In this document: positions 9,483-64,000 of the stretch, piece by piece
Position numbering within the stretch: the stretch's first letter is position 1
Layout of the letters: each line of letters starts with the position of its first letter
Origin: Arctopsyche grandis
Lineage: Eukaryota; Arthropoda; Insecta; Trichoptera; Hydropsychidae
Assembly: GCF_051622035.1 (NCBI RefSeq)
Contig: NC_135361.1
Span: 5,895,001 to 5,959,000 of the forward strand
Length of the DNA stretch: 64,000 nucleotides
Reading direction: 5' to 3'
Notes under the pieces: generated by a model
Told to the model about the DNA's origin: nothing
What the model saw: only the letters and a program-made list of their open reading frames with translations
The model's database searches: none
Translations under genes and position numbers: made by a program

Positions 9483-10026
9483 ACATATATATAAAATTGA
9501 ATGTCTGTTTGTCTGCCTGTCTGTCTCGTATATGTTCCTAAGCCACTCAACCGATTACGATGGAACTTTCAGAATTTGTTATATGCATGTCCGGGAAGCA
9601 TACTGTGAAATAAAAACGGGGAAAAACCTCTTAATAATAATATTCGTAATTACAATTTTACCGATGCGAAAGTTTGAAGCGCCATTGTGTAGTCAAGGAA
9701 ATGTGTTCGTTGGTCACCATGTTACCAGTTGGTTTATGAAGACACGGCTTTGAAGAGACGTTATTTGAGCTCCAACCATTACTTGAAACGGGAATGGGAA
9801 TTGCATGCCTTATTCTAGCATTGCAACGCATGCCGGGTTCAGCTAGTTTAATATAAAATACAAATCCAAATTACCATTTGTAGCGACGACGATTGCTATT
9901 TTACAAGTTTTATTCGTGAGTCTTTGATATTTGACAGTCAACATCCTGCGTTCCTCGTAAATTATAATATTTTACAAATTTTCCATGCGTTATTGTGCCA
10001 TTGTAACGCATGCCGGGTTCAGCTAG
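9483..10026 (+). mobile_element. Helitron-like non-autonomous repeat
   Basis: Starts in a GTCTGTTTGTCTGCCTGTC stretch, continues CAACCGATTACGATGGAAC, and twice reaches CGCATGCCGGGTTCAGCTAG (ends 9846 and 10026). CTAG before T is a Helitron-type 3' terminus. No Rep/helicase is present. Related sequence lies at 40030-40305, 42957-43170 and 43745-44185. Confidence 0.6.
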
Positions 10027-18720: not shown

Positions 18721-19790
18721 TGGGGAATTCATACTCTGATCCCGCTTCTTTGAAGTGCGGGGTTAGACAGGGTGGGTCAATGTCTCCTGGCTTATTCAAC
18801 CTTTACATGGATGAACTTTCACATCGCCTTCGACAGACTGGAGTTGGTTGCCACATAGGAGGAATATGCAGTAACCACATCAGCTATGCGGATGACATGG
18901 TGATCTTGGCGCCTTCTCCAAGTTATGCTGCAGAACATAATATGCGGTATAATACGAGTAAATCCATGGTATTGATTTTCCGATACGGTCGAGGTCCTCA
19001 TTTCGTCCCCAACATTATTTTAGATGGTCGTAATCTTGAAACTGTTACGGAAGTCAAGTATCTGGGACACTTGCTGACGGAGGATCTATCTGATGACCGT
19101 GACATCGAAAGACAAAGAAGAGCCATTTGTGTAAGGGCAAATATGCTGGCTAGATGATTTTTCCACTCCAGTGTAGAGGTTAAGAGACAATTATTTATGT
19201 CCTTTTGTACTAGCCTCTATACTGGTGAATTATGGACCAGATACAAGCGGGAGACGATGAGGAAGATAAAAGTACAATACAACAACTGTTACCGTGCTCT
19301 TTTCGGGTTACCTAGGAGCTGTAGCGCGTCGCAAATGTTTGTAGAAGGGCATGTGCCTCACTTTGAAGCCATTCTCAGGATGAGAGCGGCCTCTCTACGT
19401 CTTCGTATATTTTTATCGCCTAATTGTCTTCTTGCTGCTGCATCTTCTCATTTGCATTCTTCATTGTATGTTCGATGGATGGAACTGCTACACCGACCGC
19501 CTTGAATAGACATCAAATTATTATTATTTATTATTATAAGACTTATTTATTATTATTTATTTATTATAATTATTATTTTTATTATTTATTATTATTATTA
19601 TTATTTATTATCAGTAATATTTATATATTTACTTATGTATTTATTTATTTATTTTTTGTTTACTATTTTTCAATACTTTTTTTATTATCTATATATTATT
19701 TATATGGGCGTTGGGGATTGCACTATTCTCCTCATCGTCTGGAATAAAAGCTATTATTATTATTATTATTATTATTATGTGTGAATTTAT
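18721..19790 (+). mobile_element. 5'-truncated copy of the same CR1/L2-like LINE
   Basis: Begins within reverse transcriptase (WGNSYSDPASLKCGVRQGG in the intact copy; here from the GGGNSY region) and runs to the same 3' terminal block and (ATT)n tail. Lesions: a 33-nt in-frame deletion after SPS that removes ALNRLLEVCSS, and a stop replacing an Arg codon at 19155. ORF pieces are 18720-19157 and 19197-19505. Confidence 0.88.
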
Positions 19791-31800: not shown

Positions 31801-34800
31801 CCTCGGGTGAACCAAAATATATTTTTAATTAATGTTTTTCACAAAATGTCATATTTTATAGTAACTTACATAGGTTCACTTCGAAAAGTAAAATATGAGC
31901 GGGTGCAAATTCATTTACAAACGTTTAAGTTGATCAGTGTTCTTTGTAGTCCGTCTGTTGGATAGTTTTTCTAGTCTTTGTATTGAAAACAATAGTGTGG
32001 CGTCAGATTTAAGCTTGACCGTGAAAGTGGAAGTTTCATTTAAAGTCAATGCTTTCTATACATATATATTTCTATACATATACACCCAAAAAAAAATGCT
32101 CGCCCCGGACGCCATTTTTCCTCGCTACGCCACTGACGATTGGTGTTGAATGTTTCAACTTTTTTTTTATGTTTCGTTTGATTTTTTTTATTTAATCCTC
32201 ACTTTTTATGCCTCTACATATATACAGCTAAAAACTATGAACCTCCTAAGTATGTATCACATTATGATACATAACATTACTAGATTATTCTTTAACTGAA
32301 ACGGTTAGTAATGGCAAATAAAAAGGGGCTAGGGAGAACTTTGTTTATTGTTTTATATATTTTTTACTGTAATTGCTATTATTTATTTCCCACAATCTAT
32401 TCTATAGTTTACAATGCGCTTGCATGTTATCACTACAATGAGCCAGTATTACTATCAGCATTTTTATTATTTCATATGTACGAAAACACTCGCACTTTTT
32501 TAATGATTAATACACCACATGCATCTATCCTCATACAAGTCATTCTGATCAGACTGGTTACTTTTTTTATATGTAATAACGAGTCGTGTAACTAATTTCA
32601 GGATTACCGAGATCGTCCCTCATAGGTCTAACCAGTAGTCGTCCTGTGAGCGTTGCTCCAACTACGCCACCGAATCCTATACCAATCGCTAGTAAAACAC
32701 ATGCCTTCTTAATTGTGTTGTATAAAATGTCATTATTTGGTTCTTAAAACCGACTATTGCTCACAGGTAGTACTGAACGTCCGCCACTTGCACCGGTGAG
32801 GCCCAGAGTCAATTCCATTCTACACCTCTTCGGCGACTGGCTTTTCGAAGCGGCTCTTATTGGAACGTTCACTCATAGCGCTTCCACTCGTAAGCTATTC
32901 TCATTCAATTTTATATTCGTGTTGAAACTATACTGTTACAAAAATTAATTGTATTGTAGAAAGAGTTGAAGGAACGCCTCCTCCATCATTGCCTGATCTT
33001 CCGTCTGGTCTTCAAATACAGAACTATCAAGCAGGTATGTATGCGTGCTTTCAGTTTTATCTGTTCTTTGCTATATGTGTAGGGTTGGAATTGAACGAAA
33101 GGCTGATGTATGGGATATGGCTGAGAAAGAGTATTGTTGCGTGGACGTGAAGAGGGGGCTTCCAGAATCGGAGAGAAAGACGCAGGAGGGTTGTAGAAGG
33201 TGCTTATTCGTGTGCTCTCGTCGGCGCTCCAGGTCGGAATGGTTTCCAGACCGAGAGCGCCCCATATTTATACCCGTTGGGCACAACACACATACATACA
33301 TACACCTGTAAACTATTGGTCGATGAGTGGGGCAATCCCATTGGCCGTTACGTACGGCTTATTCATTCGGCGAGGAGATTTTGGCACAAACGAGAGATCA
33401 GGTGATTAGCGCTCGTAAGCCATCGGTTCACGAGCGCCACCCACCTAATCTCTACGTTACGGTATGTTATGGGGATGATGATTGATTGTGGGGTGAGGGA
33501 TGAAAGGGACAGAGATGTAACCGCCAGTCGCAGTTAGACCTGTACTCCTAGCGGTCGGCCGTCAAGCCACCACCTATATCTTATATATTGATGGCAGTCT
33601 GCGTAATTCCAACACGGCACCATCAGCCAAAGGTCCAGCTGGACAGTTACCACCTGATCCAGTTTCAGTGCTACCTTGTGGTCTAACACGAACCAATCCA
33701 CAACCCAACAGTTGAGCCCACAAAACGCAAACTTCGGACCGACGCCACGCCACTTTGGTTTCGGTATATCTCAAGAGATTATCTGGAAATCAAGTATATA
33801 ATTGAATATTATTATATATATACAATTTAGGGTTGGAATTTCTCAGCCATAGCTGATGTATGGGCTATGGCTGAGAAAGGGTATGTTACGACTGATTGTG
33901 AGAAAGGGATGAAAAGGGGTAGAGATGTAACGGTTAGTCGCAGTTGGACCTGTGCTCCGCGCGGTTGGTCGCTAAGCCTCTGCACGTATCGTCTTAATAA
34001 ACAACATGACTGAAAACCGCACGTGTTTGGTCTTCACCTCACCCGCAACATCCCAACTGTGGTCCTGAACAGCGTCATCTGCCAGGATTTAATACCACAT
34101 TTATTTAATGTTTTAGGTCGAGCTGAAGCTCTCGGCGCATTGTGTCGCGTCTTCACATCTAAACAATCCAGAGAAACTGTCCTTGCAGCTTACTATGCAC
34201 GATTTTATATTGCTGTCCAGCGTGGACTTCAAGATCCAGCTACAGTTCCTAGTGTCCTGCTCAATGCCGCAGACATATTTAGGTGATAATCAAGATCTAC
34301 TTAAACTTGTTTGCAATTATTTCAAATTTTATCATTCAAATTTCATTTCCAGATTGGACCTAGATGGAGTTTATATTTTAGTACCTGATTTTATTGAAGC
34401 TTTAGAAAAAGTTTTGCCTGAGAAGGAATTGAAATTGAACTCTGGCAATGTTGACAAAAAAGAATTGAGAAGAGCGAGCATTTCAATTCTTCTTTCCTTG
34501 CTAGTTGTTCCTCATCATTTACAAAATCTTCCTATCAAAGAGTTGCCGGGAAATCCTGACAGGTATAATATACAATAATCTGTTTGACTTTATTTAGCGA
34601 TGGACCGACCGAGTGGAGGTGAAATTAATAGACTTAAAGGTCTATTCATATTATCCGGCAGTTCACGGCTACAGCACAGCACAGCAGCTCACGTAAACGA
34701 CAGTTTCTTTTCATTCTATATACAGAAACACACGTTTTGGCATGTTCAAACAAGTTTTAGCCCAGTACAAGGCAAAATTGGCTTGCATATAGATGACAGA

Positions 34801-37800: not shown

Positions 37801-40800
37801 CATTGACGTCATCTCAAGTCGAAGAACACCTGCAGCCATTACACTAAATCGAGTGGAACGACGCCAAACATTCTAGCATATTCCGCCCCAACAAGCCAAG
37901 CAGAACGACACGAAATCGAAGAACACCTGCAGCCATTAAACTAAATCGAGTGGAACGACGCCAAACATTCGAGAAACGTCCACCCTTATCGACAAACCAC
38001 ATTCCTCGCACACATAAACACCACCTGCGACGAGTCACGTGGATCCCCGAAAACAATATAAAAGGAGGTCCACCCCAAACAACTTCAGTCGACCCACAGC
38101 AACAATTACACGCGACACACAGTAGCGGACCAGTCGACATCCAGCATCTGACCAGCTACCACTGCACTACCCTACGATGGAAGAACGCTTGCAACTCAGC
38201 CGGATCCAGAGCAACGACACATTGCAGATCCAGCGGCCCGCACGACACCAAGTCAACAGCCAATAGCCGTCTCGAGAACACTACGATTCCAGCCGCTTCA
38301 ACAACATATTTATACACTTGTATATTCAAACAATAAAGTACCTTATTCAAACAAACAGCAGTATTAACTACCAAACACAGACGAACTCGTCTATAATACA
38401 TGGCGGACTGGTGGTGAAGAACACCTTCATAACTAGATCAGTCCCCATAGTAGCTACTCCACTGGACTTCGCACAGAGTTCCCCGCCAATAACGGGGAAC
38501 GTCGCAAACCGGTATTCGACAGCTCGGCGACGAAAGAATCACGTTTTCACCGTGTGTGTGAGTCGAGATGTGAGTGTGTGCGTTTCGCTTCGCGTCGTGA
38601 CGCGTCCCTTCGTCGGGAAAACAAATACGGGGAACGCCACAACGCGCGAAATGCACACACTCACATTTCGACTCACACACACGGTGTTCGCGGCCGCACA
38701 TGATGCGAGTGAAGAGCCCGCTTTACAACATTGTAGAGAACAATGCAAAATAGTAATTCAACCTTCGTTTTTTTCATTGCTCAATTGCAGTTTAGTTTTG
38801 CACTTATTCGTTATTCCTTGTTTAATTTTCGACACCGCATAAGTGTGTGTCGCGTTGTCGATTCTCATCGCTTAGCTTGTATTCATGCTTTTATGCCGAA
38901 TGTCGGGCCTCAGGGCGTTCGGAAGGAGACAGCACCGGCCACGGAGCGCATAGTTCATCCAGCAGCCTTCACGGAACACCTTCATCCATCGACGATTTAC
39001 CAAATGCAGATTCACTTTTAAGGGACATAGAACCCTCCACACCCGGCTTTGGTAATACATTTTTTTTTCTTTTATTTTTTAAATCCACTGTTTTTTTTTT
39101 TTGTTTTTTTCATTATTGTTTTTGACATCACGTTTATAATTTTTACTGCTTATTATTTTTGCATTTTATTGCACGTGTTTTTCGTTGTTGTTGTCGTTGT
39201 TTTGCTAGCGAAGATTTCGTTTTTGTAGGCTCTGGATTACTAGTTCGTGCCACGTATTTGGTGTGCCATCGACTCATATCCTCGTGGAAGTCTGATCTCA
39301 TCGTCTCTCTGGCCGCTCTGGAACTTCTCGCAGGCTTAGCTCGTCTCCACAACACTCGCTCAGGTAAAATTCATCGGTATTGATAAACAATGCACGCTTA
39401 CAATGTTAATTTAAAATAAAAATATATTAAAACCATAACCTATATGTTAATTGATGTTGTATTTGTTGTTTCTATTTATGTATAATTGACTATATCAGGC
39501 CCGGCCCTTGGGTATATGGCACCCCTAGGCAGATTGGTTTAGCCCCCACCCCCCCCCCCCCCTTTAATTTCGTGAAAGTTCTTGGAATTTTATGTTGAAG
39601 AAAAATATATCAAGACAAGAACAAAAATTTTTATTCAAAATAGGCATGTTTTATGTATAAAAATGAATAAAACAAAATAGAATACGGGAACTATGAATAA
39701 ATTCAACAATGAATTGAAGAATTTTATAATTTTATTCTTTCGAATATGATTGGTTAAGATATTAAATTTCGTGAAGCAAATCCATCCCTGATATATTTGT
39801 GTGGTAGAGAATCCTGACAGATGACGCTGGTCAAGACCACGGTTAGGATGAAGTGGTTGAGGTGAATACCAAACACGTGCGTTTTCAGTCATGTTGTTTA
39901 TTAAGATGATACGTGCGGAGGCTTAGCGACCAACCGCGCGGAGCACAGGTCCAACTGCGACTAACAGTTATATATTTGCCCCTTTTCATACCCTCTCACA
40001 ATCAGTCGTAACATACTCTTTCTCAGTCATAGATTTGTTGAATGCATGTCCGGAAAGCTTACTGTGAAATAAAAACGGGAAAAAAACCTCTTACTAATAA
40101 TATTCGTCATCGCGATTTTACCGACGGGAAAGTATGAAGCGCCAATGTGTAGTCAAGGAAATGTGCTCGTTGGGAACCTCGTTACCAGTTGGTTTATGAC
40201 GACACGGCGTTGAAGAGACATTGTCGAGTTCCAACCATCACTTGAAACGGGAATGGGATTTGTATGCCTTATTCTAGCATTGCAACGCATGTCGGGTTCA
40301 GCTAGTTTTATATAAAATACAATTCCAAATTACCATTTGTAGCAACGACGATTGCTTTTTTTCGTTTATTCGTTTTTAAGTTTTATTCGTGAGTCGTTGA
40401 TATTTGACAGTCAACTTCCTGCGTTCCTCGTAAATTATAATATTTTACAATCAGTATTATTACTCCGAGTAGAAGAACTAGAATGTTTTATAAGTTCAAA
40501 GAAAACCAAATTATTTTTCTTTTATATTTTTGTAATGAACGGATTTACGCGCGTCTTTATGCAGAGGGCGCGATACGTCGTTATTCTTCCAAGAGTCGAG
40601 TTAGGTGGAAACGTGGACTAACCTTGGGATAGTTATATATGTGTATATAGTCGGGGAGGTTCCTGACTGCAAGTCGTCTGCGTTGATAACAGCTTCCTGG
40701 CTCCGGAAGCTGGCTCTGCGGTCGAGTCACAGCAGCGGGAGGGGGGAGGCAGGAGACAAACTCCGTACTGCCTCGTGTGGACACAAGATGGCGATCTCTG

Positions 40801-47535: not shown

Positions 47536-50135
47536 AATCTATAATTTGGAAAGAGACTTTGTATGTATCCTTGGTCGTCGTCGTCGTCCGTAGATCGGTG
47601 ACGTCATCGAACACGTGTTTCGATTTTTTTTTTTTCGATCCATGGGCGCCGATTTGTTTTTTTCGTTTCAATGGATTCACCCCCGCGGGGGCGCAAGGTG
47701 AGTAGCTTCATGGGGGCGCCAGGGGCGCCACAAGGGGCGCAGCCCCGTGGGGCCCCGAAGGGGGCCCGGGGGGGCGCAGCCTCATGGGGCCCCAAACGGG
47801 GCGCAGCCCCGTGGGGCCCCGAATCATGGGGGCGCGGATCATGGGGGCGCGGATCATGGGGGCGCGGAGGGGCGAAGCCCCAAAAGGCATTAACTAAGGG
47901 GGGCGAAGCCCTAAACGGCATTTAATCATGGGGGCGCGGAGGGGCGAAGCCCTAAAAGGCATTAACTAAGGGGGGCGAAGCCCTAGATGGCATTAAATCA
48001 TGGGGGCGCGGAGGGGCGAAGCCCTAAAAGGCAACTGATAATGGGGGCGGAGCCCTAGACGGCAATTAACCATGGGGACGTGGAGGGGCGAAGCCCTAAA
48101 AGGCAACTGATCATGGGGGCGAAGCCCTAGACGGCATTTAACCATGGGGACGTGGAGGGGCGAAGCCCTTATCGGCAACTGATCATGGGGGCGAAGCCCT
48201 AGACGGCATTTAATCATGAGGGTGCGGAGGGGCGAAGCCCCAAAAGGCATTAGTTAAGGGGGGCGAAGCCCTAAACGGCAGTTAATCATGGGGGCGCGGA
48301 GGGGCGAAGCCCTAAAAGGCATTAGCTAAGGGGGGCGAAGCCCTAAACGGCAATTAATCTTGAGGGCGCGGGGGGCGAAGCCCTAAAAGGCATTAACTAG
48401 GGAGGGCGAAGCCCTAGACGGCATTTAATCATGGGGGTGCGGAGGGGCGAAGCCCTAAAAGGCATTAACTAAGGGGGGCGAAGCCCTAGACGGCTTTGAA
48501 TCATGGGGGCGCGGAGGGGCGAAGCCCTAAAAGGCAACTGATCATGGGGGCGAAGCCCTAAACGGCAATTGCTCATGGGGCGTGGAGGGGCGAAGCCCTA
48601 GAAGGCAAAGGCTCAGGGGGGTGCCGAGGGCGAAGCCCTAGAAGGCAAAAAAAAAAAATTGATTTTTTTTTTTGATTTTTTAAAAAATTTTTTTTGATTT
48701 TTTTTTGATTTTTTTTTTTATTTTTTTTTTATTTTTTTTTAAATTTTTTTTTAAAATTTTTTTTTTAAATTTTTAAATTTTTTTTTTTTTTTTAATTAAA
48801 TTAGCTTAGTCATGTTTAAGCGGTTTATATTATAAACACTGAGCGAAGCCGGGTAATACAGCTAGTATATATATATATATATGTATAGATCGCAATTAAA
48901 TTGTGTTATTTAAATCAATCGCTCTATCTCGACTATAGTCGAATGGTCTGCGTACACTGCTGTAGTCGTGCAGGAGTAGGTTCGATCTTGCGAATTAATT
49001 TTTATTTTATTTTTCAAATATCGTTAAAATATATATTAATTTCAATTAAAAATATATATTTAATTGTTTAATATGAAAAGAAAAAAGTGGTTAAAAACCT
49101 CGCTAAATAAAATTACTATAATTACGTATTTTTACATGGCGAGAATGAAAAATTTCAATTAATGTTTAAAAAAAAAAGGACTATTTAAATATTGGACGAT
49201 GGCGTAATTGGTTAGCTCGCCGAACTCAGATATACCTATAAGAGGATATTTGTATTCGCGGGTTTACCGGTTCGATACCGCTGCAAAGTCTCGACGAATG
49301 AAAAATAATACAAAGTTTAGGCTTTTTATCGATTCATTCATTATGTTCGGCTAGCGATAGGACACACACAGATTAGCGTCTTTATATATGTGGTAGAGAA
49401 TCCTGACAGATGACGCTGTTCAGGACCACGGTTGGGATGTGGCGGTTGAGGTGAAAACTAAACACGTGCGTTTTCAGTCACGTTGTTTATTAAGACGATA
49501 CGTGCGGAAGCTTAGCGACCAACCGCGCGGAGCACAGGTCCAACTGTGACTAACCGTTATATCTCTGCCCCTTTTCATCCCCTTCTCACAATCAGTCGTA
49601 ACATACCCTTTCTCAGCCATAGCCCATACATCAGCCTTTCGTTCAATTCCAACCCTACATATATATAATAATATTCAATTATATACTTGATTTCCAGATA
49701 ATCTCTTGAGATATACCGAAACCGGAGTGGCGTGGCGTCGGTCCGAAGTTTGCGTTTTGTGGGTTCAACTGTTGGGTTGTGGATTGGTTCGTGTCAGAGC
49801 ACAAAGTAGCACTGGAACTGGATCAGGTGGTAACTGTCCAGCTGGACCTTTGGCTGATGGTGCTGTGTTGGAATTACGCAGACTGCCATCAGCTCTTCGT
49901 CATACAGCACTCAATATTGCCAGACGAGCTCGTTTACATGACGATAGGTACAATTCATTTAACCTACTGAAATTCTACACTACAAGATAGTGAAAATTGA
50001 TTTTTGTTTTGTATTTTCAGCTATCAATTACCACACGTTCGGAGAAGACATAAAATTCAAGAAATTGCACAAAAATTTAAAAGAGATCTGAGCGAGCCGG
50101 AATTACTTACATCTTTGTTTGCAGATCCAGTCTAA
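25890..50135 (+). CDS. RALGAPB: Ral GTPase-activating protein subunit beta, complete, 27 coding exons
   Basis: Non-catalytic partner of RalGAP alpha in the cytosolic complex that inactivates RalA/RalB. Reconstructed exons: 25890-26057, 26123-26369, 26774-27008, 27081-27241, 27317-27459, 28645-28762, 30589-30753, 32602-32691, 32767-32889, 32960-33034, 34117-34282, 34353-34562, 37094-37269, 38914-39051, 39229-39363, 41381-41602, 41672-41778, 44224-44330, 44406-44497, 45455-45635, 45715-45847, 45920-46021, 46093-46298, 46373-46893, 46972-47058, 49698-49947, 50021-50135. They total 4473 nt, every junction is GT-AG and in phase, giving 1490 residues. Family matches: N-terminus [83 protein letters not shown] and a C-terminal Rap/Ran-GAP-like region from about residue 1065 ([19 protein letters not shown]). 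The start agrees with the vertebrate start. An acceptor at 25858-25859 implies an upstream non-coding exon. AATAAA signals lie at 50335 and 50477. Confidence 0.95.
26544..26738. mobile_element. MITE-like inverted repeat in RALGAPB intron 2
   Basis: TTAAAGGCTAGAATTTGACG at the left and CGTCAAGTCCTAACCTTAA at the right are imperfect inverted repeats starting with TTAA. An inner pair (CTTCATCTGTGCCACACC and GGTGTGGTTCAGATGAAG) extends the fold. Confidence 0.5.
27570..28107. mobile_element. piggyBac-type MITE in RALGAPB intron 5
   Basis: CCCTTTGAATGCTGA and TCAGCACTCAAAGGG form 15-bp terminal inverted repeats with one mismatch. The element is bounded by TTAA at 27566-27569 and 28108-28111. TTAA duplication and CCC ends are the piggyBac hallmark. 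538 bp, no transposase. An inverted relative is at 11531-12067. Confidence 0.82.
29804..30309. mobile_element. piggyBac-type MITE in RALGAPB intron 6
   Basis: CCCTTTGCCCGCGGC and GCCGCGGGCAAACGG ends, flanked by TTAA (29800-29803 and 30310-30313). 506 bp. Distinct in sequence from the intron 5 element. Confidence 0.82.
31232..31381. repeat. Inverted repeat in RALGAPB intron 7
   Basis: 50-bp arms (31232-31281 and 31332-31381), 3 mismatches, GATGAAGACTCGAAAAATG at the left end; loop 50 bp. Probably a small fold-back MITE. Confidence 0.75.
31455..31732 (-). mobile_element. LTR-like repeat (family F) fragment in RALGAPB intron 7
   Basis: Homologous to 35179-35485 over about 280 bp, with the inverse TATA motif TATAAAAGAC. 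Both ends are ragged. Confidence 0.5.
31764..32135. mobile_element. hAT-like MITE in RALGAPB intron 7
   Basis: Ends CAGTGGCGTAACAAGTGAGG and CCTCGCTACGCCACTG form terminal inverted repeats. The 8-bp flanks ATAATTAG and ACGATTGG match at 5 of 8 bases, consistent with an old hAT duplication. It has no coding content. Confidence 0.6.
33078..34099 (+). mobile_element. LTR-bounded chimeric element in RALGAPB intron 10 carrying an inverted copy of RALGAPB exon 26
   Basis: The element starts TGTAGGGTTGGAATTG (33078) and ends ACCACA (34099), filling nearly all of the 1082-bp intron 10. The left part (33078 to about 33588) is the longer form of an LTR whose short forms occur at 39800 and 49389; it stops near the expected polyadenylation region. 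The middle part (33589-33782) is an antisense copy of RALGAPB exon 26 plus about 40 bp of intron 25. The right part (33828-34099) is a short-form LTR containing AATAAA. The order exon fragment, intron tail, LTR is the same as at 49.4-49.9 kb. No clean target-site duplication is visible. The element ends 17 nt before exon 11. Confidence 0.75.
33589..33782 (-). pseudogene. Antisense partial copy of RALGAPB exon 26
   Basis: Reads on the minus strand as the first 194 nt of exon 26 (true copy 49698-49891), preceded by the same intron end ATTTCCAG. By eye I count 8 differences in 194 nt. The reading frame is still open and encodes [21 protein letters not shown] and [19 protein letters not shown]. 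It stops abruptly after CTGCCATCA and joins LTR-like sequence. It cannot be spliced into RALGAPB mRNA because it is in the opposite orientation. Confidence 0.9.
35179..35507 (-). mobile_element. LTR-like repeat (family F) in RALGAPB intron 12
   Basis: The minus strand starts TGTTACGTGGGAACATG and contains CTTATAAGGAGG as a TATA box. About 300 bp are shared with 31455-31732 (CTCGCCCAGGTCT, TGTTCACCCACG, ACAGTGGATACTCTC). The low-coordinate end is not defined. Confidence 0.55.
35560..35880 (+). mobile_element. Diverged SINE in RALGAPB intron 12
   Basis: B box GGGTTCGATTCCCG, then TCCTATCAGAGTTTGCC, GAAACGCTTCCTG and the ATGGATGTCTCTGTGG segment of the family body. Confidence 0.55.
36385..36505 (+). 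mobile_element. Truncated family C LTR
   Basis: TGTTACGTACACCGCC followed by about 110 bp nearly identical to the start of the 36671 LTR, then divergence at GTCTCTTGTTTACC. The right boundary is approximate. The two copies are direct repeats 286 bp apart in the same intron. Confidence 0.65.
36671..37069 (+). mobile_element. Solo LTR (family C) immediately before RALGAPB exon 13
   Basis: Runs from TGCTACGTACACCGCC to TACGCAGCA, 399 bp, flanked by ATAT (4-bp duplication). It contains CCAATAAATGCTGTG as the likely polyadenylation signal. Its end is 24 nt before exon 13, so the branch point of that intron probably lies in LTR sequence. Confidence 0.78.
37728..38410 (+). mobile_element. LTR (family D) in RALGAPB intron 13
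   Basis: Begins TGTAGGAATCTCATCACC. It contains a TATA box (ACAATATAAAAGGAGG near 38055) and AATAAA near 38332. It ends about CTATAATACA, followed by TGGCGGACTGGTGG, which could be the start of a tRNA primer-binding site. Related to the 51141 LTR. The right boundary is uncertain. Confidence 0.65.
38550..38684. repeat. Inverted repeat in RALGAPB intron 13
   Basis: 32-bp arms (38550-38581 and 38653-38684) with one mismatch, GT-rich (CCGTGTGTGTGAGTCGA), loop 71 bp. It follows the internal remnant of the family D LTR element. Confidence 0.75.
39800..40029 (-). mobile_element. Truncated family A LTR
   Basis: Begins TGTGGTAGAGAATCC and follows the 49389 LTR closely, including the inverse AATAAA, until CTCAGTCATAG. 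There it switches abruptly into Helitron-like sequence. The missing end shows that it was broken by, or recombined with, the neighbouring repeat. Confidence 0.7.
40030..40305 (+). mobile_element. Helitron-like fragment within the hAT shell
   Basis: Starts inside the repeat (GAATGCATGTCCGGAAAG) and ends GGGTTCAGCTAG. The following 150 bp also match the DNA after 9846, so the shared unit is longer than one terminus. Confidence 0.6.
40531..40991 (+). mobile_element. Solo LTR (family B), nested in the hAT shell
   Basis: Runs from TGTAATGAACGG to CGTCGCGTTACA, 461 bp, flanked by TTTT on each side. The first 200 bp match the 17247 copy closely; the second half diverges, so the two represent subfamilies. 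Confidence 0.8.
41821..42956. mobile_element. Long-arm fold-back element in RALGAPB intron 17
   Basis: GTTACACCGAATCC at the left and GGATTCGGTGTAAC at the right start inverted arms of roughly 200-250 bp (41821 to about 42030; about 42700 to 42956). The arms contain repeats of CCGAATGCGTGAA and CCCAGTTCACGGATT. Flanks are TATAT/ATATA. The loop holds the SINE 42045-42565. Element ORFs are absent. Confidence 0.75.
42045..42565 (-). mobile_element. SINE inside a fold-back element, RALGAPB intron 17
   Basis: Tail TTATTTTATTGTCACAAATC, body TCTGATAGAGAAAAGATCG, head AACCTTTGACCTCAGTG and GCTATCACTAAGCCAAACTG. It has an extra segment (42240-42335) lacking in the 947 copy. It occupies the loop between long inverted repeats at 41821 and 42956. 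Confidence 0.75.
42957..44185 (+). mobile_element. Two Helitron-like fragments with unassigned DNA between, RALGAPB intron 17
   Basis: 42957-43170 has GTTTGTCTGTCTGTCTGTC, ACCGATTACGATGGAACTTT and GTAGTTAAG. 43745-44185 has GTTTGTCTGTCTGTCGCG and CCGGCATGGGTTCAGGTAG. The 43170-43745 stretch has no recognisable gene or repeat boundary. Confidence 0.5.
44515..45395 (+). repeat. CCGGAAGT repeat family, copy 2, RALGAPB intron 19
   Basis: The first part is deleted (it jumps from CTATGTACGTAGC to GTTTAAGCGTAATATC). The remainder matches copies 1 and 3 down to AAAGTCATGGGTTGGTCAC. It contains a 190-bp MITE. Confidence 0.7.
44900..45089. mobile_element. MITE inside CCGGAAGT copy 2
   Basis: Same position and same flanking TATTATTT (44892-44899 and 45090-45097) as in copy 3, so copies 2 and 3 descend from one MITE-bearing ancestor. 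Confidence 0.7.
47446..47532. repeat. TA microsatellite within the Helitron-like element
   Basis: Uninterrupted (TA)n of about 75 bp. Confidence 0.95.
47690..48645 (+). repeat. GC-rich minisatellite, alternating units
   Basis: Built on GGGGCGAAGCCCTA. Two unit types alternate: a short one ending AAAAGGCATTAACTAAG or AAAAGGCAACTGATCATG, and a longer one ending GACGGCATTTAATCATG then GGGGCGCGGAGG. The dimer is about 68-72 bp, repeated roughly 11 to 12 times, with a more degenerate GGGGCGC-rich lead-in before 47870. The core is itself an inverted repeat (GGGCGAAGCCC). Confidence 0.85.
49389..49659 (-). mobile_element. Solo LTR (family A, short form) in RALGAPB intron 25
   Basis: Plus-strand reading TGTGGTAGAG to CCCTACA, 271 bp, flanked on both sides by TATA (4-bp duplication, in a TA-rich context). 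AATAAA appears on the minus strand near 49486, which sets the sense orientation. It ends 38 nt before exon 26. Related copies are at 33828-34099 and 39800-40029. Confidence 0.8.

Positions 50136-60639: not shown

Positions 60640-64000
<3,361 letters not shown>

Follow-up and report, generated by a model that had tools for sequence, protein, structure and literature searches.

Within an intron of the RALGAPB gene of Arctopsyche grandis, an inverted copy of most of the gene's own penultimate exon, together with the tail of the preceding intron and the first part of the young LTR that lies beside that exon, sits between two pieces of what appears to be a single older solo LTR. We hold, with a probability of about 0.78, that this insert was left behind when a double-strand break was repaired in a single ectopic and one-sided event, with an LTR as template. 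The analysis covers a window of 64,000 nucleotides (C7:5895001-5959000) in an assembly of 475.7 Mb and 189 contigs, against which the repeat searches were run.

The identity of the gene follows from the exons that flank the host intron (33035-34116, + strand, 1082 bp, splice sites placed by eye), which align to positions 463-501 and 541-664 of RalGAP subunit beta (PDB 9qwp_B). The exon at 49698-49947 (+, 250 bp) and the last coding exon, which comes next and starts at 50021, align to positions 1420-1519 of the same protein, and the description of the former as penultimate in the initial annotation therefore stands; two RALGAPB exons compared with Pfam gave no match. We keep the exon and intron numbers of that annotation (10 for the host intron, 25 and 26 for the donor intron and exon), which are not a recount. 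At the donor locus, three elements lie side by side: a young solo LTR in intron 25 (49389-49659, −, 271 bp, with TATA on both sides; sequence reading and family search), the tail of intron 25 (49660-49697, +; sequence reading and alignment to the copy) and exon 26 itself, which was recognized by sequence reading and its RalGAP subunit beta match and of which 49698-49891 is the part copied.

According to the initial annotation, part of exon 26 recurs inverted in an earlier intron, along with the tail of intron 25 and sequence resembling the LTR next to that exon, and a blastn comparison of the window with itself bears this out: 33589-34104 (+) aligns with 49891-49384 (−), over 517 columns at 92.3% identity (744 bits). 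This is the top-scoring of 25 inverted pairs within positions 1-50135 (E 1e-10), where four further pairs score above 240 bits, one of them involving the right LTR of the insert itself; because of this abundance, inverted repeats are in themselves ordinary for RALGAPB. The exon copy (33589-33782, −) covers 194 of the 250 bp and matches 49698-49891 without gaps, and the roughly eight differences that had been counted by eye prove to be exactly 8 of 194. Six of these are nonsynonymous and two synonymous, and the reading frame stays open; the copy looks neutral, because this is about the ratio expected of neutral change. The adjoining copy of the intron 25 tail (33783-33822, −; placed by alignment) retains the 3′ splice site and differs from the donor at none of 37 aligned bases. 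A small insertion, ACAAT, lies at its border with the LTR (33821-33830); we considered a second template switch as its origin and set this aside, as the likely source is on the wrong side for leftward synthesis. When exon 26 and its tail were searched against the whole 475.7-Mb assembly, only two places were found, the exon itself and the intronic copy. This search, which the initial annotation had proposed, thus found no further LTR-exon 26 copy, and on this count we rejected a mobile LTR-exon element.

The copy is part of a unit (33078-34099) that, as had been noted, fills most of the host intron (1022 of 1082 bases, 94%). Its left end is the 5′ part of a solo LTR (33078-33585, +), which starts with TG, stops at the AATAAA region and was assigned to an old subfamily by search and by diagnostic positions (18 of 20 old). 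This end had been described as a longer LTR form; an LTR fragment is indeed present, but it looks longer because an unrelated high-copy repeat of about 329 bp is nested in it at 33132-33460 (+), as genome search and comparison of the flanks indicate. In a search with the whole unit, 41 of the 43 places listed match about 33132-33460 alone, at 88-95% identity (40 of 1259 candidates were scored). The nested repeat has a TG start and AT-rich flanks and may therefore be a solo LTR from a second family. Close similarity of the left fragment to the exon-26 LTR is limited to its initial ~48 bases (98% identity), over which the subfamilies cannot be told apart; beyond the nested repeat, identity to the exon-26 LTR falls to 71%, against 93% for the right-hand LTR (reference 59-159).

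The right-hand LTR is a mosaic, whose first part belongs to the subfamily of the exon-26 LTR and whose last part belongs to another. Its 5′ part (33823-33994, +) is young at all 23 diagnostic positions, its 3′ part (34042-34099, +) shows old-subfamily states at 4 of 5 positions and ends with CA, and by subfamily comparison the transition between them falls, in register, within 33995-34041 (+). The block enclosed by old LTR sequence thus consists of antisense exon 26, the intron 25 tail and about 170-200 bp of young LTR 5′ sequence, in the order of the donor locus. It joins the old LTR in register at the right and non-homologously at the left, where comparison of the joins leaves about 3 bases (33586-33588, not assigned to a strand) that match neither side. 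We infer that the flanking LTR pieces are halves of one older solo LTR, running from TG at 33078 to CA at 34099 and split at the AATAAA region. In LTR coordinates the old left half runs out at about reference 159-165 (about 33585), and on the right the old states reappear somewhere from 33994 to 34042, so that the split need have cost the old LTR little sequence or none.

The ends of the unit carry no clear target-site duplication (TATG against TTTA), although each flank is one change away from TATA, and there is no poly(A) tract at either join. For comparison, 18 of 28 young LTRs have identical 4-bp flanks, all of them TATA, TACA or TAAA, as counted by a script that located both ends in 28 of 29 young copies and dropped the remaining one. 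The TATG and TTTA flanks are no proof that both halves were a single insertion.

The subfamily assignments come from copies collected across the assembly. First-look searches returned 379 candidates for the family of the exon-26 LTR and 366 for the right-hand LTR, and the piece of the left fragment that follows the nested repeat, used as a query, found 40 places including the window's own, which represent a more diverged subfamily with 77-98% identity over the matched parts. From the 39 other places, 29 were fetched as the old group (L042-L070), with a match length that sufficed in 24 for the diagnostic table and in 21 for the 3′ table, and these were compared with a young group of 29 copies (L010-L038), which yielded 23 diagnostic positions for the 5′ part (reference 58-163) and another 5 for the 3′ part, four of these from the diagnostic table and one from the 3′ table. 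Twenty of the positions fall within the left fragment, which is old at 18 of them but was itself the query that found the old group. The right-hand LTR is young at 23 of 23 positions over reference 58-163 and old at 4 of 5 over reference 209-260 (Fisher p = 0.0002, with diagnostic positions that were not chosen blind); it is young at reference 209, where half of the old copies differ. Membership of the old group was decided by likeness to the left fragment, and since this fragment stops near reference 165, the 3′ states were unselected. Both parts are covered in 61 distinct LTR copies (63 rows), and 2 of these, the right-hand LTR included, show a young-5′/old-3′ mosaic, and typing of 34 of the 39 other places listed as matches to the right-hand LTR revealed no such mosaic, with one of them, L072, typed at 2 of the 5 3′ sites. 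The sole other mosaic among the 61 typed copies belongs to a row of LTRs at C8:30435298-30436333 (the L033/L057 cluster), beside an old LTR that another insert interrupts. It lies at C8:30435576-30435858 and is not split in the manner seen in RALGAPB; mosaics can therefore also come from gene conversion alone or represent a minor lineage.

Divergence between donor and copy follows the same partition. The exon, tail and young LTR part differ at 14 of 372 bases and the old part at 9 of 82 (p = 0.012), and the difference persists when the exon is left out (6 of 178 against 9 of 82, p = 0.021); these counts omit a patch comprising the border and a palindrome described below, with 8 differences among 27 aligned bases. 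Because divergence is lower in the part that would have been copied, this pattern supports ectopic repair. We also considered shared private variants as proof of the donor, and none of the five private variants of the donor LTR is found in the copy. Three of them lie outside the part that was necessarily copied, and the two that lie inside it and are missing from the copy must have arisen after copying. Positive proof of the donor therefore comes from the adjoining intron tail and exon, the LTR part itself giving none.

From the anatomy of the block, which the alignments establish, we infer strand invasion and repair synthesis as follows. The old solo LTR in the host intron would have broken at its AATAAA region, and the right broken end would have found its target of invasion in the young LTR, a homologous sequence 16 kb distant, either in its inverted position or on a sister or homologous chromosome. 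Synthesis would then have proceeded leftward, through the TG end of the young LTR and the intron tail and into 194 bp of exon 26, after which the displaced new strand would have been end-joined to the left half of the old LTR. One-sided repair is favored because the right join is made of in-register LTR homology and the left join is non-homologous, and because there is a single subfamily switch in the right-hand LTR, from 23 of 23 young to 4 of 5 old states. Several features by which repair-mediated duplications are recognized are likewise found here: copied genomic DNA lies between old-type LTR pieces that are contiguous within the resolution of the diagnostic sites, the joins consist of LTR homology at the right and about 3 unexplained bases at the left, and there is neither a clear target-site duplication nor a poly(A) tract to mark retrotransposition.

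Two further steps are more weakly suggested. Sequence reading and searches identified in the young part of the copy a perfect 14-bp inverted repeat with a 10-base loop (33840-33877, +), private to the copy among those examined: this 14-bp form occurs in 0 of 29 young copies, and a genome-wide search for its left arm plus loop, tolerating as many as 2 mismatches, gave one place. A snap-back template switch during the leftward synthesis could have made this palindrome. The break itself may have been caused by excision of a DNA transposon at the split site, since two sister LTRs of the old group, L056 and L062, are interrupted at precisely the same point by an insertion that has identical GTTATAAT on either flank (L056:1580-1990 and L062:1570-1800). 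GTTATAAT agrees with the target pattern of hAT elements, and inserts of this kind go by the name of MITEs. A first-look search returned 1960 candidates for the short repeat family of the L062 insert, and the best local match between this insert and that of L056 (79% over 34 bases, E 5e-4) weakly hints that the two are one family.

We also considered other old LTRs broken near AATAAA (L042, L043, L053, L056, L057 and L062) as events of the same kind, and rejected this idea: L056 and L062 have their GTTATAAT-flanked insertions, L057 holds a different insert, and the break in L053 looks like an internal deletion. In L043:1-350, LTR pieces stand head to head at their 3′ ends, with the matching old 5′ part 1.1 kb off, and this is possibly another rearranged LTR.

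Several other repeats in the window were observed in passing. A third young LTR copy (39794-40032, minus strand) is cut off at 40033, the start of a repeat (40033-40450) that also occurs at 9574-9977. An inverted pair of 1.1 kb and 94% identity (18722-19778 and 61446-62551) extends past the last coding exon, and there are self-matching arrays at 47853-48648 and 60641-61679, one with units of ~72 bp and one matching in both directions in small steps.

The origin of the insert could also be sought in replication or in RNA. In replication-based template switching (FoSTeS/MMBIR), a fork stalled in the old LTR might have changed its template to the young LTR in inverted orientation, replicated LTR, tail and exon there, and then returned. 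The result would be almost identical, although no two-ended break would be needed; the inverted orientation, the 16-kb distance and the private palindrome all suit a template-switching polymerase. The one-sided long homology and the small loss of old LTR sequence suit a two-ended break at least equally, and we consider fork switching unlikely, although sequence alone cannot fully separate the two. The initial annotation had favored an LTR-bounded unit that arose by read-through or template switching and was then re-inserted, and this idea, like break repair templated by RNA, would involve an antisense read-through RNA that ran from exon 26 into the LTR, ended near its poly(A) signal, and was reverse transcribed and inserted. 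The young sequence does stop near AATAAA, where such an RNA would end, and splicing is no discriminator for an RNA origin as the copy ends inside the exon; a processed, mRNA-derived retrocopy is ruled out, since the intron 25 tail is kept. The left and right LTRs differ in subfamily over reference 59-159, so that we rejected them as a retrotransposition pair, which would have been identical at insertion. The LTR pieces are not the identical pair that a new insertion would have, the unit shows no clear target-site duplication, its joins lack a poly(A) tract, the genome search found no additional chimeric copy, and the join at the right is an in-register LTR-LTR join. Re-insertion of such a unit is thus not supported, and we regard an RNA template of any kind as very unlikely.

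The remaining alternatives concern what the subfamily switch and the assembly represent. The switch would not mark the break if an LTR of an intermediate subfamily had inserted independently on the right, or if gene conversion had later replaced part of either LTR. One other mosaic LTR does exist and LTR copies are numerous, judging by the 379 and 366 first-look candidates, whereas typing at both parts covers 61 distinct copies; against this, the order of exon, tail and LTR and their join match the donor locus, a match that would not result from an independent insertion, and the 34 typed places among the 39 others listed for the right-hand LTR contain no mosaic, so that we give this explanation very little credence. 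An artefact of assembly seems scarcely conceivable: the 8 exon differences, the private palindrome, the old-subfamily flanks and the nested repeat are unlike mis-joined identical reads, and the divergence of 14 in 372 over exon, tail and young LTR part and the subfamily mosaic likewise argue for a real event. One-sided repair of a break in the old LTR thus remains our preferred reading.

Events of this kind have been described in vertebrates. Pace et al. (2009, PMC2671141) report repair-mediated duplications in vertebrates that are attributed to SDSA, including 824 closely linked ones in human that were seen as interruptions of transposable elements. Among these, human ACSBG2 contains an inverted copy of its exon 7 within one of its own introns, which is ~94% identical, keeps its frame intact and shows no trace of selection; by analogy, it is a near-identical published precedent for the RALGAPB case, and the kind of event is already known. 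As in that study, a short nearby segment has been copied into an interrupted transposable element and occurs at one other place only. The differences are that donor and acceptor lie within 5 kb in the proximal class but 16 kb apart in RALGAPB, that the catalogued joins show microhomology, deletions and filler whereas RALGAPB has long LTR-LTR homology on one side, and that the ACSBG2 copy forms part of a fusion transcript whereas the RALGAPB copy is known from genomic sequence; the genomes listed there do not include that of Arctopsyche grandis.

The proposed steps also have parallels in other systems. A 2016 study of mammalian cells (PMC5104497) describes gene conversion that terminates non-canonically, by end joining, in which homologous invasion on one side is followed by copying into non-homologous sequence, end joining of the second end and occasional template switches, as we propose here; in that work the break was induced in cultured cells and the donor was the sister chromatid, whereas the RALGAPB event would be a fossil with an ectopic donor. 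The palindrome resembles the quasi-palindrome template-switch mutations of PMC3820800, which convert an imperfect inverted repeat to longer identity in a single event, but it is seen once, in an LTR copy, and its position is what ties it to the repair. Breaks left by DNA transposons are repaired with filler sequence, as described in PMC5023962; in RALGAPB, by comparison, excision is suggested solely by the same-site insertions in the two sister LTRs.

As had been pointed out in the initial annotation, the confirmed inverted copy means that the RALGAPB pre-mRNA would hold two complementary segments ~16 kb apart; these comprise about 370 aligned bases that are 96% alike outside the border and palindrome patch. 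The consequences that the initial annotation had suggested, namely double-stranded RNA, endogenous siRNA and inversion between the copies, would be conceivable for other inverted repeat pairs of the gene as well. Were the antisense exon 26 to pair with exon 26 in cis and alter RALGAPB expression through siRNA, editing or back-splicing, a repair accident would have created a self-regulating gene, lowering or reshaping its expression, but we hold this to be highly improbable, and as regards the biology of the gene the copy is probably a neutral passenger. Its interest would lie in the event that it records. The two LTR subfamilies serve as natural markers that reveal the homologous side and the approximate start of synthesis, and the coding exon marks its extent, so that the insert may be read as a fossil of a single DNA-repair event, adding to a class catalogued in vertebrates. 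On this reading, solo LTRs scattered within a gene can shuffle pieces of its exons among its introns.
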